This document shows, in pieces, positions 2 through 5,101 of a stretch of DNA of 5,101 nt (position 1 is its first letter; every line of letters begins with the position of its first letter). This stretch comes from an uncultured Eggerthellaceae bacterium. Lineage in GTDB: Bacteria; Actinomycetota; Coriobacteriia; Coriobacteriales; Eggerthellaceae. The DNA lies in contig CAMPAJ010000145.1 in NCBI GenBank assembly GCA_946631805.1, positions 1-5,101 of the forward strand, in the 5' to 3' direction. The position numbers and the translations under genes are program-made. The notes beneath the pieces were generated by a model. It saw nothing but the letters and a program-made list of their open reading frames with translations, had not been told where the DNA came from and ran no database searches.

Positions 2-1222
2 GCACATCCGGGCACCTCGGCGCAGGACCTGGGCACGATTATCTGCCAGACGTACTACAACAAGTGCGCAACGTACCGCCAGCAGGGCATGGCCACGCTT
101 TCCGTCATCGACCTCGATAAAATCGGCGATGTTTCCGAGGCGTTCGAGAACGCTTCGGACGACATAGCGTTCTCGACCGTCGATGCGACGTCCCTGCGGA
201 GGCTGCAGCAGGGGGCCAAGGCCGCCGAGAGCTACGGCAACACGGGCTTCTACTCGATGAACATGGTCGATTTGGCCGACCTTATGTCCAAGACGAGCGC
301 CGTGGTGGGCAATGACGCCAAGGCGGTGGTGAACGCCATCGACGAGGCGGTCGTCTACGAGGTACATGGCCGCAACCGCGCGAGCGCATCGGGGCTTTCG
401 GTGTACTTCCCGCTGCAGATTTTGGACCGCAAGGATTTCAACCGCTACGCAGAGATTACCGACAACACGCCCTACTTGCAGTTCCTCGCCGTCATGTTCG
501 GCGTGTACGACAACTACCAGTGGAACAAGTTCGACAACTTCGTGCCGCTGCACGGCGAGCCCGTGGCCGAAAAGGACGTGAAGATCAAGTACAAGCAGAC
601 CGTGAACAAGGACGGTCACGTGCAGCTGAAGGTGACCGATGGCGTCGACCAGGTCGGCAACGTCTCGTTCGAGATGTACGTGTACCTGGACCAGTTGGGC
701 ATCCTGTGCTATCTGGGTTCCGATAACGACATGACCGGGTCGTACGATACCGGCGTGTTCGTCGACAACTTCCAGGACGACTGGCTGACCATCGACGGCC
801 ACTACGTCAGCGCATCGCTGTGCGAAGTGGGCGACGGGTACAACCTGTACTACATCCCCATTTTGCTCAACGACGAGCAGACCGGCCTCGTCGTCGAATA
901 CGAGTACTCGACCAACGAGTACAACGTGCTGTGCGTGTGGGACGAGTCCAACCAGGCGACCGGCATGGCGGGCAAGACGGGCCGTCTGCTCGAGGAGGGC
1001 GACAAGGTGCAGTTCCTCTTCCCGGCCGAGAACGCCAAGACGGGCATCAACGACGTCATCCCGCTCGAGACGATGACGTGGCACGAGGATGCGGTCGTGG
1101 CCTACGAGGGCCTGGGTGATGGAAACTTCGCGTTCCGCTACGAGATTACCGACGTGCTTGGCAACAAGACCAACACTGAGCTTGTGTTCCAGCGCTACAA
1201 GGATGGGCGCGTCGTGAAATAG
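2..1222 (+). CDS. Clostripain-family (peptidase C11) cysteine protease, C-terminal part, 5' truncated
   Basis: The reading frame is open from base 2 to a TAG at 1220-1222, giving 406 residues with no start in view. An ATG at 89 is internal, because the protein reads through it with family-like sequence on both sides. Landmarks typical of clostripain-like proteins, in fragment numbering, are a helix with PGTSAQDLGTIICQTYY near the start, TLSVIDLDKI at about 32-41, FYSMNMVDLADL at about 83-94, and the hallmark GLSVYFP at about 131-137. A beta-rich C-terminal domain of about 200 residues follows (about 200-406), rich in Tyr, Asp and Val. The family's catalytic His and Cys lie upstream and are not visible, so activity cannot be judged. 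Known members are secreted or surface proteases cleaving after Arg or Lys. The visible C terminus ends in RYKDGRVVK with no membrane anchor or sortase motif, so any export signal must be N-terminal. Family assignment is firm; the substrate is unknown. Confidence 0.85.
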   Translation, partial: AHPGTSAQDLGTIICQTYYNKCATYRQQGMATLSVIDLDKIGDVSEAFENASDDIAFSTVDATSLRRLQQGAKAAESYGNTGFYSMNMVDLADLMSKTSAVVGNDAKAVVNAIDEAVVYEVHGRNRASASGLSVYFPLQILDRKDFNRYAEITDNTPYLQFLAVMFGVYDNYQWNKFDNFVPLHGEPVAEKDVKIKYKQTVNKDGHVQLKVTDGVDQVGNVSFEMYVYLDQLGILCYLGSDNDMTGSYDTGVFVDNFQDDWLTIDGHYVSASLCEVGDGYNLYYIPILLNDEQTGLVVEYEYSTNEYNVLCVWDESNQATGMAGKTGRLLEEGDKVQFLFPAENAKTGINDVIPLETMTWHEDAVVAYEGLGDGNFAFRYEITDVLGNKTNTELVFQRYKDGRVVK

Positions 1223-1233
1223 CGGGCTGCTGT

Positions 1234-1266
1234 CCCGCTGCCCCGTGAGGTGGCGGCGGGATCTTT
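1234..1266 (+). terminator. Hairpin after the C11 protease gene, possible terminator; left hairpin of repeat copy A
   Basis: Starting 11 bases after the stop codon, CCCGCTGCC (1234-1242) pairs with GGCGGCGGG (1252-1260), with one G-T wobble. Two inner C-G pairs close a GTGA (GNRA-type) tetraloop, leaving one bulged T. Only ATCTTT follows, so the U-tract is poor for an intrinsic terminator. A second, competing hairpin pairs AGCGGG (1221-1226) with CCCGCT (1234-1239). The same hairpin-then-core arrangement recurs at three other places, so this may be part of the repeat and serve as a 3' end or stabilising structure. Confidence 0.5.
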
Positions 1267-1286
1267 CGCTTGGCTTCGGCTAACCT
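1263..1286 (+). repeat. Interspersed repeat core, copy A (truncated)
   Basis: These 24 bases are identical to 5020-5043, the start of copy D, and include the 12-base CGCTTGGCTTCG shared by all four copies. The similarity stops abruptly after GGCTAACCT. The TAAGTGGAT and CTGCAGAATCGCTCA blocks of the full core are absent, and the hairpin of copy B begins within about 7 bases. Copy A is therefore a remnant of the left end of a unit. Confidence 0.75.
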
Positions 1287-1294
1287 GTCCCACC

Positions 1295-1405
1295 GCCCCG
1301 CGAGGGGGAGGCGGGGGCCGTTCGCTTGGCTTCGCCTAGCATAAGTGGATTACAGGAGCAGTGGCTGCAGAATCGCTCACGACCCCCGCCTCCCCCTCGC
1401 GGGGC
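1295..1405. repeat. Perfect 23-bp inverted repeat enclosing core copy B
   Basis: Arm 1295-1317 is the exact reverse complement of arm 1383-1405. They are separated by 65 bases that hold core B. The arms are almost pure G/C (runs of C, GCGAG, runs of G). The left arm, with the preceding CC, can also fold locally: CCGCC (1293-1297) with GGCGG (1310-1314) over a GCGA loop. A long-range stem and a short local hairpin are thus mutually exclusive. The first 18 bases of the right arm recur identically at 5084-5101 after copy D, so the right arm belongs to the element. Confidence 0.85.
1321..1382 (+). repeat. Interspersed repeat core, copy B
   Basis: This is a full 62-base core. Blocks shared with other copies are CGCTTGGCTTCG (1323-1334), TAAGTGGAT (1342-1350) and CTGCAGAATCGCTCA (1365-1379). 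Copy C lies exactly 108 bases further on and copy D 3701 bases further on, both without indels across the core. The left end can fold as GCTTGGC / GCCTAGC around TTC (1324-1340), with one T-T mismatch. Confidence 0.9.
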
Positions 1406-1429
1406 TCCGTTGTCCCAGTTGGGAGCCTC
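1401..1429 (+). repeat. Hairpin preceding repeat core C
   Basis: GGGGCTCC (1401-1408) pairs with GGAGCCTC (1422-1429): eight pairs including one G-T wobble, around a 13-base loop. It ends one to two bases before the CGCTTGG of copy C. Its sequence is unrelated to the hairpins before copies A and D, yet it occupies the same position, so structure and not sequence is what is kept. It shares bases 1401-1405 with the right arm of the 23-bp inverted repeat. Confidence 0.65.
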
Positions 1430-1490
1430 TCGCTTGGCTTCGCCTAGCATAAGTGGATAACAGGAAAAGTGGCTGCAGAATCGCTCAAGA
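1429..1490 (+). repeat. Interspersed repeat core, copy C
   Basis: This full core carries CGCTTGGCTTCG (1431-1442), TAAGTGGAT (1450-1458) and CTGCAGAATCGCTCA (1473-1487). It differs from copy B at only a few positions (for example ATAACAGGAAAA against ATTACAGGAGCA) and has no indels. The right flank after GACCC is diverged, reading CACCACCCCGAG where copies B and D have the CCCCGCCTCCCC arm. Confidence 0.9.
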
Positions 1491-1498
1491 CCCACCAC

Positions 1499-1524
1499 CC
1501 CGAGCTCGCGGGGCTACGGGTTTT
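1499..1524 (+). terminator. Possible intrinsic terminator at the end of the repeat array
   Basis: CCCGAGC (1499-1505) pairs with GCTaCGGG (1513-1520) with one bulged A and a 7-base loop, and TTTT follows directly (1521-1524). This is the best stem-plus-T-run in the intergenic stretch on the + strand. An alternative stem, CCCCG (1498-1502) with CGGGG (1509-1513), overlaps it. It would insulate the downstream operon from read-through. No experimental evidence; the T-run is short. Confidence 0.4.
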
Positions 1525-1538
1525 CCTCCCTTCAGGAT

Positions 1539-1562
1539 TTGTGCACAATGCAATGGTATACT
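1539..1562 (+). promoter_or_regulatory. Candidate extended -10 promoter with a palindromic box, upstream of the coiled-coil gene
   Basis: TATACT (1557-1562) matches the sigma-70-type -10 consensus at five of six positions and is preceded by TGG (1554-1556), an extended -10 TGn motif. No good -35 lies at 16-18 bases. Just upstream, where a spacer or -35 edge would be, is a perfect 10-base palindrome, TTGTGCACAA (1539-1548), which could be an operator. A start near 1569 would give a leader of about 100 bases. The AT-rich character stands out from the GC-rich surroundings. Confidence 0.5.
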
Positions 1563-1565
1563 CCA

Positions 1566-1604
1566 CCGCTGTGCTATCAGCGGGCGCGTGCGACTGGGGA
1601 GTCG
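1566..1604 (+). other. Two short hairpins in the presumed 5' leader
   Basis: CCGCTG (1566-1571) pairs with CAGCGG (1578-1583) around a 6-base loop. Further on, CGACT (1591-1595) pairs with AGTCG (1600-1604) around GGGG. Both would lie at the very 5' end of a transcript starting near 1569. They do not match any riboswitch I recognise. They could stabilise the mRNA or be chance in GC-rich DNA. Confidence 0.35.
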
Positions 1605-1655
1605 TTGGCGGCGCCTGCTCGTGTATCCGATATTCGAAGCTTCAAATTGCCGACA

Positions 1656-1662
1656 AGAGGAG
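1656..1662 (+). promoter_or_regulatory. Ribosome binding site that fixes the coiled-coil gene start at 1668
   Basis: AGAGGAG ends five bases before ATG 1668-1670, good Shine-Dalgarno spacing. The same frame is open upstream to an ATG at 1539. That one lies inside the promoter-like region, has no purine-rich site at proper spacing, and would add a 43-residue segment of unremarkable composition. ATG 1668 is therefore preferred. Confidence 0.75.
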
Positions 1663-1667
1663 TGAGC

Positions 1668-2984
1668 ATGGCTGGTCGCGATATTAATATCCCCTTTGGT
1701 CCCGATAGGACCGGAGCGTTGGATTTGTCTTCGATCGTTCCCGAGGTCGATCCTTCCAGCAAGGAGGATGGCAAAGACCTGGGGCATACGAATCGCTTTG
1801 AGGCCGTTGGTGCCCGGACCAATGTTTCGGAAGAAGAGATCAACGGGGCCTATAACCGCGCGTTTGCCGACGTTGCACCTGTTGGCGTGACCGATTCTGA
1901 GGCTGATTCAGAGCCCGGTGCGCAGGGGGACGCTGGGCTGGAGGTCTCGGGCGCTGCCATTTCCGAAATTGATGGCGCGGAGAGCGCTGCTGCTGAATTC
2001 GAAGGCGATGCTGCTGGCGCCGGTTTCGAGGCTGAAACCGAAGGCGACGCCGAGGACAATCCGGCGGGGAACGCCGTCGCCGACGTGCAGGCGAGCCTCG
2101 TCGCGCTCAAGAACTCCATCGACCAGGGTCGTCAGCTCAAGGCGCGCGAGAAGGAACGCGATGAGTTTGGCCAAAGGCTCGATGAGGCCCGGGAAGAGCT
2201 CGCCGATCGCGAGGACATCCTGGCCAACTATCGCGAAATCGTCGCCGAGCAGGATGCGATCATCGACGAGAACACGCGTCAGCGCGAGGCGCGCAAGAAC
2301 GAACTTGCCCAGCTCGTCGCCGACCAGGAGCAAATTTCCGAAGAGCTGCAGAGGATGCGCGAGTACAACGATTCCAGGCTCGAACCGCTCGAGACGGCGC
2401 TCGGCCGCGCGAAGGCCACTGCCGAGCAGGCCAAGAACGACGAGCGCAGCCGCAAATCGGAGTTGAGCGCTGCGGAATCCGAGAAACGCCGCGCCGAAGG
2501 CGGCGATGACGCAGCGATGGCGACTGCTCGCTTCGAGGTTGCGCAGCAAGCGTTCGACGAGGCGGCGGCGCGTAGCCAGGCGGCCAAGGAAGCGCTCGAC
2601 CGCGCGCAAAAGCAGTACGATGACCTGCGCGAACGGGTCAAGCAAGCCGAAGCCCCTCTTGAGCGCAGCCTCGAGGACCTCGACAAGCAGATCGAAGAGC
2701 TCAAGGAAAGCATCACGCGCCTGGGCGACACGATTTCGGCAGCGAACAAGCGCCGCCAGTACTGCGATACCGTGTACCAGTATCCGGACGAGACGGCCAA
2801 GCTGCGCGAGAGCGTCGAGGCCGACGAGGAGATAGCGCGCCGCATGGACGTCGAAAACGACGAGCTGCGCGACCGTCTGGCCGAAAGCAAGGCGCGCTCG
2901 AAGACCGCAAAGCTCGTCATCGGCGCGGTCATCGCCATCATCGTCGTCATAATCATCGTGTTCTTCGTCGTCGTCGGCCGCTAA
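1668..2984 (+). CDS. Coiled-coil protein with C-terminal membrane anchor, function unknown
   Basis: I do not recognise this 438-residue protein as a named family. It has no N-terminal signal peptide. Residues about 1-140 are low in structure, acidic and Ala/Gly/Glu-rich. Residues about 142-235 and 240-350 form long, highly charged heptad-like helices (for example EKERDEFGQRLDEAREELAD), broken near Pro240, the GGDD at 278-281 and Pro330. A short loop around 364-374 carries the only Cys (366) and several Tyr, followed by another helix to about 410. Residues about 416-436 (LVIGAVIAIIVVIIIVFFVV) are a single membrane segment after a basic stretch, KARSKTAK, leaving only Gly-Arg behind it. This predicts a tail-anchored protein with its bulk in the cytoplasm. 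The methyltransferase gene starts 19 bases after the stop, so the two are probably co-transcribed. A role as a membrane-tethered scaffold or spacer is inference only. Confidence 0.85.
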   Translation: MAGRDINIPFGPDRTGALDLSSIVPEVDPSSKEDGKDLGHTNRFEAVGARTNVSEEEINGAYNRAFADVAPVGVTDSEADSEPGAQGDAGLEVSGAAISEIDGAESAAAEFEGDAAGAGFEAETEGDAEDNPAGNAVADVQASLVALKNSIDQGRQLKAREKERDEFGQRLDEAREELADREDILANYREIVAEQDAIIDENTRQREARKNELAQLVADQEQISEELQRMREYNDSRLEPLETALGRAKATAEQAKNDERSRKSELSAAESEKRRAEGGDDAAMATARFEVAQQAFDEAAARSQAAKEALDRAQKQYDDLRERVKQAEAPLERSLEDLDKQIEELKESITRLGDTISAANKRRQYCDTVYQYPDETAKLRESVEADEEIARRMDVENDELRDRLAESKARSKTAKLVIGAVIAIIVVIIIVFFVVVGR

Positions 2985-4002: not shown

Positions 4003-4968
4003 ATGAACGTATTGGTCATGGTGCCGTTCCAAGAGCGCCATATGCAGCAGATTCGCGAAGCGGCAGGGGAAGGCGCCCGCGTCGACCAAATTCTGTTCAA
4101 GGACACGATGTTTCGCGAGATGCAGGAAGCCCTGCGTACGTATGACGTAATCATCGGCGAGCCCCCTGCGCGCCTGCTCATGGGCGATGACGTGACGGTC
4201 AAATGGGTGCAATCGACCTGGGCGGGCGTGGACATATACACGCGCAGTCCTTATGGCTTCCCCAAGGAAATGATGCTCACGAACGTCGCGGGTACCGCGT
4301 ACGGGCACATCGTCTCGCAGTTCGCCGTCGGGCAGATCCTCGCCCTTACCCAGAACATTGCAGGCTACGCGAAAGCCCAGGCCACCATGCAGTGGCACAG
4401 CCTGGGCCCCGTCATGTCGCTCGAAGGCGCCAACGTGCTCATTTTCGGCGCCGGCGATTTGGGCGCAAGCGTGGCCAAGCGCCTGAAGAGCTTCGACGTC
4501 GCCAAGATCACGGGTGTGTGCCGCAACACCGCTGAGCCGCGCGAAGGCTTCGACGAGCTCGTCACCCTTCCCAAGGCCGAGTTCTGCCTGGGTTCCTCCG
4601 ACGTGGTAGTCGGCTGCCTGCCCAGCGCACGCGAGACGACGAAGTACTTCGGCGAGCGCCGTTTGCGCATGCTCAAGGAGGGGAGCGTCCTCGTCAACGT
4701 GGGCCGTGGCGATTTCATCGACTGCGATGCCCTGGCGCGCGTTCTTTCCGATGGCCATCTGCGCGGCGCGGCCCTGGACGTGACCGATCCCGAGCCGCTG
4801 CCCCTCAAGCACGCCCTGTGGCGCAACCAGCGCTGTCTCATCACTCCGCATTCCGCTGGCGGCGCATTTGGCAAGTGCGACAAAACCGAAGACCTCATCG
4901 CCGAAATATGCTGCGACAACCTGCGCCGCTACCGCGCCGGCGAAGAACTAACGCACCGCGTGTACTAG
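4003..4968 (+). CDS. D-2-hydroxyacid dehydrogenase (NAD(P)-dependent), glyoxylate/hydroxypyruvate reductase-like
   Basis: A 321-residue cytoplasmic oxidoreductase that would interconvert a 2-keto acid and a D-2-hydroxy acid. The N-terminal substrate domain carries the family's (S)TWAGVD at 71-77. The Rossmann domain begins at about 141, with the dinucleotide motif FGAGDLG (148-154). The catalytic triad is complete: Arg235 in VNVGRGDFID, Glu264 in LDVTDPEPLP, and His283 in TPHSAGG. At the end of the second beta strand, where NAD-specific enzymes usually have Asp, the sequence reads GVCRNTA (171-177); Arg174 hints at NADPH use. Substrate is not predictable: 3-phosphoglycerate, glyoxylate, hydroxypyruvate and 2-ketoisocaproate enzymes share these motifs. 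It lacks the C-terminal ACT domain of regulated SerA enzymes. AGAAGGGG (3989-3996), six bases before the ATG, supports the start. Repeat copy D follows 21 bases after the stop. Confidence 0.88.
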   Translation: MNVLVMVPFQERHMQQIREAAGEGARVDQILFKDTMFREMQEALRTYDVIIGEPPARLLMGDDVTVKWVQSTWAGVDIYTRSPYGFPKEMMLTNVAGTAYGHIVSQFAVGQILALTQNIAGYAKAQATMQWHSLGPVMSLEGANVLIFGAGDLGASVAKRLKSFDVAKITGVCRNTAEPREGFDELVTLPKAEFCLGSSDVVVGCLPSARETTKYFGERRLRMLKEGSVLVNVGRGDFIDCDALARVLSDGHLRGAALDVTDPEPLPLKHALWRNQRCLITPHSAGGAFGKCDKTEDLIAEICCDNLRRYRAGEELTHRVY

Positions 4969-4989
4969 CACAGGGCTTCAGGCTTCCGT

Positions 4990-5018
4990 CTCACCGCCCC
5001 GTAACCCGGAGTGGTGGG
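4990..5018 (+). terminator. Hairpin after the dehydrogenase gene, possible terminator; left hairpin of repeat copy D
   Basis: CTCACC (4990-4995) pairs with GGTGGG (5013-5018), with one T-G wobble, around a 17-base C-rich loop. It begins 21 bases after the stop codon and is followed by CCTTTCG, with only three T. Position and context match the hairpin after the protease gene (1234-1260): stop codon, hairpin, then the conserved core. Termination is plausible but the T-run is poor. Confidence 0.45.
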
Positions 5019-5019
5019 C

Positions 5020-5101
5020 CTTTCGCTTGGCTTCGGCTAACCTAAGTGGATGACAGGAACAGTGCCTGCAGAATCGCTCACGACCCCCGCCTCCCCCTCG
5101 C
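5020..5101 (+). repeat. Interspersed repeat core, copy D, with right arm cut by the window edge
   Basis: The core starts with 24 bases identical to copy A and continues with the blocks found in B and C: CGCTTGGCTTCG (5024-5035), TAAGTGGAT (5043-5051) and CTGCAGAATCGCTCA (5066-5080). The next 18 bases (5084-5101) equal the start of the right inverted-repeat arm of copy B (1383-1400). About six substitutions and no indels separate it from B over the core. The element continues past the right edge. Confidence 0.9.

Follow-up and report, generated by a model that had tools for sequence, protein, structure and literature searches.

MITEs such as ERIC and NEMIS/Correia are small inverted repeats, dispersed and non-coding, which can fold and carry conserved terminal repeats. 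Another kind of folding DNA is represented by the attC sites, substrates of the integron integrase, which present a variable stem with fixed asymmetric mismatches and conserved R boxes at the base. REP/BIME sequences, as described in PMC3733652, are high-copy, extragenic units placed close together in opposite orientation; the genes on their two sides are unidirectional or convergent, and most units follow a coding region. The REP itself is a palindrome of 20-40 bp with a GTAG/CGTC tag. REPINs, as described in PMC3116915, are folded inverted pairs with common compensatory changes, in which two invariant 16-bp regions flank a variable hairpin part, and they are tied to RAYT genes. The element characterized here is REP/BIME-like in one genome (UBA3686, hereafter G001) and terminator-like at gene ends, and it shows the full set of defining features of neither.

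The window, that is the whole analyzed stretch of 5,101 nt from an uncultured Eggerthellaceae bacterium, had been described in a first-pass annotation as containing four repeat units, each made of a hairpin directly followed by a core. The four units stand, since CTTGGCTTCG is found at 1269, 1325, 1433 and 5026, whereas the layout was misread: one long stem spans the core, and the supposed separate hairpin at 1293-1317 is really a left arm (1295-1321) which, in copy B, pairs past the core with 1379-1405. The features of the window are the following:

1223..1286, + strand: copy A, truncated; it comprises the left part and the beginning of the core, CGCTTGGCTTCGGCTAACC, and breaks off where copy B begins
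1288..1412, + strand: copy B, the sole complete copy in the window; model score of 117.4 bits
1288-1294, + strand: left foot of copy B, TCCCACC
1295-1321, + strand: left arm of copy B
1323-1378, + strand: core of copy B
1325..1334, + strand: left strand of the internal motif of copy B, CTTGGCTTCG
1365..1375, + strand: right strand of the internal motif of copy B, CTGCAGAATCG
1379-1405, + strand: right arm of copy B
1406-1412, + strand: right foot of copy B, TCCGTTG
1402..1514, + strand: copy C, damaged, with an intact core and a right arm at about 1484-1514
4988..5101, + strand: copy D, behind gene 4, with hybrid arms; it runs past the end of the window

All four copies are on the + strand and 3' of + strand genes, A, B and C behind gene 1 (stop at 1222) and D behind gene 4 (stop at 4968). 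The 27-nt arms of copy B, with the core between them, are 96% complementary, and the copy as a whole is predicted to fold at -80.1 kcal/mol (z of -6.9 versus shuffles). The nhmmer match of copy A (1233-1286) covers the left half of the profile only, and the copy ends in the apical loop, after CTAACC. Copy C presents a local hairpin in place of a left arm matching its right arm, and its whole fold reaches -37.8 kcal/mol, while copy D has a right arm as in B and a non-matching left arm, its model match being of 69 bits over model positions 17-106. As the first-pass annotation had it, B, C and D are in register without indels, at offsets of 108 and 3701, and have an exact stretch in common (CTGCAGAATCGCTCA at 1365, 1473 and 5066); likewise, TGCAGAATCG lies downstream of CTTGGCTTCG in three of the four copies, at 1366, 1474 and 5067. 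One pair covaries inside the window, being C1335-G1364 in B, C1443-G1472 in C and G5036-C5065 in D. A 72-aa minus-strand ORF (1280-1498) overlaps copies B and C; protein coding was nevertheless rejected because no frame is consistent and the differences between copies, examined by eye, mostly change residues. No classical terminator was found in window 1200-1700. Genes 1 (2-1222) and 2 (1668-2984) are without a Pfam match at E 0.001, and gene 3 encodes a SpoU-type methylase with an identity of 85% to its counterpart in genome G126, 84% in G004, 82% in G002 and 78% in G001.

Compared across genomes, a complete copy is a rod of 110-125 nt: a basal stem whose sequence is free is followed by the internal motif, then by a small helix that covaries, and the top is a loop or a further stem. 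The left strand of the motif reads CTTGGCTTCG, CTTGTCCTCG or CTGGTCCTCG, the right strand CTGCRGAATCG, and the arms of complete copies measure 21-60 nt. The nearly invariant letters of the core (CT.G.C.TCG on the left, CTGC.GAATCG on the right) imply that several non-standard pairs sit in the middle of the stem. In an alignment of 73 copies, 28 of 35 stem pairs are changed on both sides, which bears out the covarying stems anticipated at first; paired cells amount to 89.7% (shuffles 70.2%, slid controls no more than 48.1%), doubly changed cells number 480 against 151.7 in shuffles, and the observed value was reached by none of 500 shuffles for any of five pairing measures, though kinship within G001 inflates the covariation counts, so that copies from other genomes weigh more. 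Two matches were left out when copies were selected, one likely random and the other a plausible diverged copy. In 47 of 50 non-G001 copies the arms had sufficient length to be measured: complementarity is 93% for own arms and 58% for crossed arms, and left arms share an identity of 37%. Arm complementarity was itself one ground for admission to this set; among the exact-core copies from the distant regions 26 of 30 passed, an uncounted number of fuzzy matches was dropped, and B alone of the window copies was admitted. Among 184 copies, the core pair S-S' is formed in every one (G-C in 95, C-G in 87, wobble in 2), and core pair 7 is T-A in 155 and C-G in 29, with no mismatch. A spacer-like origin of the arms was considered and rejected, their strongest matches in the retrieved DNA being, as read by eye, other and partly truncated copies of the element. 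One copy (L184, 2254-2448) carries about 70 nt extra in the apical loop, itself capable of forming hairpins as judged by eye.

This anatomy is close to that of REPINs in its folding, its variable hairpin and its compensatory changes, and is reversed with respect to the arrangement given in PMC3116915: here two variable stems enclose the invariant part, and the element is not linked to a transposase. It also appears to differ from the MITEs mentioned above, as its arms are not conserved in sequence. A variable stem with fixed asymmetric mismatches recalls attC sites, and the copies might then be sites of recombination that are recognized in a folded, single-stranded form; we hold this to be extremely unlikely, because conservation is centered within the element and not at its base, and no cassette-like array appears in the regions read. 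In agreement with the initial impression that the family was not a known one, no Rfam family matched at or above the gathering threshold; three sub-threshold matches to microRNA hairpins (E 1 to 2.5), over copies in L226, L262 and L264, are taken as generic hairpin scores, and the partial texts returned by literature searches held nothing describing the element.

A degenerate pattern of 21 bases covering the core retrieved 29 stretches from the 84,980-species genome_contigs collection: 23 from UBA3686 (G001), five from three other Eggerthellaceae MAGs and one from a Myxococcales MAG, in whose genome neither blastn nor the covariance model gave a match. With 28 of 29 matches in Eggerthellaceae MAGs, the core is not due to chance. 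With model R1, built from the 73 copies, G001 yields a minimum of 141 copies, as scoring covered 150 of its 1744 candidates; G002 has 22, G003 15 and G004 19, so that the many intergenic copies named as a check in the first-pass annotation do exist in relatives. The same model finds the element in 23 of 138 family genomes and in 22 of 396 genomes of the class (at most 8 candidates scored per genome), the class being Coriobacteriia according to record titles and the Eggerthellaceae lineage; kinship between genomes follows the groups given by the search tool. A two-subtype core pattern is present in 17 of the 396 class genomes, with 129 matches in G001 and 0 for the reversed control, and a phylum-wide core pattern occurs in 6 of 396 genomes, five of them already in the class search and the sixth, G656, with no palindrome between the motifs. 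Viral contigs gave no exact match to the G001-type pattern, and plasmids no blastn match to window 1223-1520. The pattern ATTCCGCAG..CGAGGAC (90 of 396 genomes) was discarded as a count, being noisy and having several matches without a palindrome between the motifs. The element is real, apparently uncatalogued, structurally constrained and patchily distributed across Coriobacteriia; its freely differing arms, its preference for gene 3' ends and its class-wide distribution go beyond what had been noticed in the window.

The placement of the copies was analyzed relative to genes called by a codon-usage script trained on loci mostly from G001. The 64 unpaired G001 copies are in tandem sense (29), tandem antisense (13), convergent (17) and divergent (1) position or at a contig or locus edge (4); for the 70 G001 copies in convergent pairs, these numbers are 26, 25, 16, 2 and 1, respectively. 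In these loci, gaps that lack the element and measure 150 nt or more are tandem in 55 cases, divergent in 18 and convergent in 11, and divergent gaps are avoided by the element (3 of 129 G001 copies versus 18 of 84 element-free gaps, p of 6e-6). Sense copies likewise outnumber antisense ones in tandem gaps (23:10) among the 50 non-G001 copies. The distant genomes contain a small number of copies, situated shortly past stop codons: 19 of 25 have a same-strand gene upstream, with the core 32-49 nt past the stop in 13 of these 19. One copy begins about 25 nt downstream of a gene for SRP RNA and shares its strand. The element is similar to an intrinsic terminator in being a strong GC-rich hairpin right behind the stop, in the same place as the plain terminators of relatives. 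It differs by its fixed internal motif, by its stems of 20 to about 60 nt and by being mostly without a U tract, TTTT being present within the downstream 30 nt of 21 of 184 copies (15 of 134 in G001, 6 of 50 elsewhere), against 4 on the mirrored side.

Orthologous gene ends were compared for two locus types, rpsJ and groEL. The end of rpsJ (S10) carries the element in G207 and G413, and in the other three genomes of the genus a simple hairpin followed by TTT, TTTT or TTTTT (G369, G279 and G394, respectively). For groEL, 30 loci were read from 43 genomes: the motif is present in 22, with one or two letters altered in five of these, and its left half only in L321; L332 and L335 have a similar hairpin with another core, L329, L330 and L333 a plain hairpin with 5-6 T, and in two loci a contig end intervenes. 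Here the motif is reduced to GTCCTCG...CTGCGGAAT, and the pairs flanking it are regular. Of ten groEL loci read further, five motif-bearing ones end in CTGCGTTYAC or CTTGCGTTTGC, without TTTT, and two of the three plain hairpins end in TTTTTGCGTT. No T tract follows the motif-bearing hairpins read at either gene. Among 16 aligned groEL orthologs a few stem pairs are changed on both sides (e.g., T-A 9, C-G 5), many of the mispaired cells coming from L321, whose right half is lost. This positional evidence points to the motif and the U tract as probable alternatives at gene ends and to a gene-end role for the element. Other long hairpins were seen at these loci and elsewhere. In L310 and most similar groEL loci, the apical stem is a long GC hairpin and the folds are near -170 kcal/mol; L281 (G394, behind rpsJ) and L329 (G427, behind groEL) contain other very long, near-perfect hairpins with GGGGACGGG beside ordinary terminators; and L217 (G004), at about 1230-1520, has a long hairpin with another core (CTAGGCCTACAGCTGC ... 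TAGCTGCGCAAGCGG) in the gap that separates its counterparts of window genes 3 and 4.

The explanation that we prefer, with about an even chance of being right, is that the copies are terminator-like mRNA 3'-end hairpins of Coriobacteriia that have turned REP/BIME-like in some lineages. The element would be transcribed at the gene end as an RNA rod, which would either end transcription or protect the 3' end, and the internal motif would serve as a docking site for a putative factor, making the U tract dispensable. Copy number and layout show that the element has also spread in G001 as a REP/BIME-like repeat, frequently in convergent pairs. That the element terminates transcription we infer from sequence and position, and the many G001 copies that are antisense members of convergent pairs count against an mRNA 3'-end function. 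Arms that vary freely by locus and sit where relatives have plain terminators could also mean that the core is a mobile insert which entered the loop of pre-existing terminator hairpins, the arms being the old terminator stems. This appears quite improbable, given that the stems of motif-less relatives at rpsJ and groEL differ in sequence from the arms, that arms are common within G001 subfamilies and bear the fixed C.A mismatch described below, and that arm copies found elsewhere in the retrieved DNA are remnants of the element.

The multiplication in G001 brings the element close to REP/BIME sequences as presented in PMC3733652, since it is likewise multi-copy, extragenic, composed of convergent units and situated in tandem or convergent gaps, rarely in divergent ones. 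Set against the same description, it is longer than a REP palindrome and has no general tag; its internal motif is fixed, the sequence of its arms is free, and it exists also at low copy number in distant genomes. In the 25 nt upstream, GTAG occurs for 4 of 134 G001 copies and 5 of 50 others, and CGTC for 45 of 134 and 5 of 50, so that at most one subfamily is CGTC-tagged. Neighbors within 400 nt in G001 are arranged +- in 35 cases, ++ in 2, -- in 1 and -+ in 0 (two -+ with a looser filter). The gap between convergent partners is 27-174 nt, and 42-43 nt in 7 of 35; T[TCA]CGT follows right after the arm in 13 of 20 convergent-pair gaps inspected. Convergent pairs often end in TCCC[AG]CC...GG[TC]GGGA, and TCCCACC is upstream of 46 of 134 G001 copies and 5 of 50 others. 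No target site duplication was visible by eye in 20 convergent pairs, with no close empty site for comparison, the G004 ortholog being too diverged to define exact insertion ends. Subfamilies of G001 are nearly identical, and the pairs in L085 and L087 share both halves and part of the gap, which shows multiplication within this genome.

Such features would also be expected of selfish miniature DNA of the REP/REPIN/MITE kind, folded as single strands and read through the internal motif by a transposase encoded elsewhere, with gene ends as tolerated insertion sites and arms kept by palindrome correction during replication. We regard this as a serious possibility, although a somewhat less than likely one. 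Besides the copy number in G001, the convergence of 35 of 38 close neighbors and the near-identical subfamilies with their two homologous pairs in L085 and L087, it is favored by presence or absence at the site of copy D, the gene 4 ortholog of G004 showing no core in the 275 nt read downstream. In addition, an orthologous copy in G160 and G244 has the same outside flank and an inverted core (L257 2545-2575, L258 2620-2650), and stem mismatches have no RNA-strand bias, with 54 G.T/T.G and 70 A.C/C.A unique contexts (p of 0.18) in a set likewise restricted to copies with complementary arms. A constraint acting on the sense RNA only predicts more G.U than A.C, so these counts argue against a purely RNA-level constraint; copies between convergent genes, perhaps read on both strands, may blur this measure. 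In G015 and G016, an antisense copy is placed behind rplX in the ribosomal protein operon, before a gene that we take to be rplE, and its arm changes look matched on both sides. This copy, the inversion in place and the missing strand bias fit maintenance at the DNA level or a strand-independent role, and they tell against the reading that we prefer.

Against the selfish origin stands the C.A mismatch about 8 nt before CTTGG, which is kept in 112 of 136 G001 copies (not in G002 or G004) and which free palindrome correction would erase, as well as the scarcity of copies in distant genomes and their closeness to stop codons. The candidate mobilizer is no more favorable to it. A REP-type transposase had been suggested as a point to check, and a RAYT-like gene does exist in G001 (L102, 1450-2211; Pfam Y1_Tnp above cut-off, NCBIfam RAYT model below it, at 56.2 of 80 bits). 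This gene, the sole one of its type found there, is flanked on both sides by different repeats of its own (GGGGAGTCTCCCC), a second REP family of the genome, and no element lies in the roughly 1.5 kb covered on either side, so it was rejected as an obvious mobilizer. Hairpins like the GGGGAGTCTCCCC repeats flank several copies of one element subfamily, making hitch-hiking with this second family possible. A Y1 transposase match was obtained in 3 of 4 genomes, the exception being G002, which has 22 copies and is a draft MAG, so that this absence is weak. Of the two alternatives raised at first, a constrained structured element or a REP/MITE-like spread, both seem to be partly right.

In its strongest form, a 3'-end function would make the element an undescribed kind of bacterial mRNA 3' end, in which the hairpin sequence is free and a dedicated factor, ending or processing the transcript, is recruited by a fixed internal RNA motif in place of a U tract; in some lineages it would have become a self-spreading repeat. 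We advance this tentatively and consider it doubtful. If the element terminates transcription or protects transcripts, it would be a 3'-end signal of Coriobacteriia, read by a factor and missed by terminator finders based on the U tract. If it is mainly mobile, it would represent a dispersed repeat recognized by its shape and its fixed internal motif instead of fixed ends. Either way, its many structured copies form a natural series in which constraint on the RNA could be told apart from constraint on the DNA.
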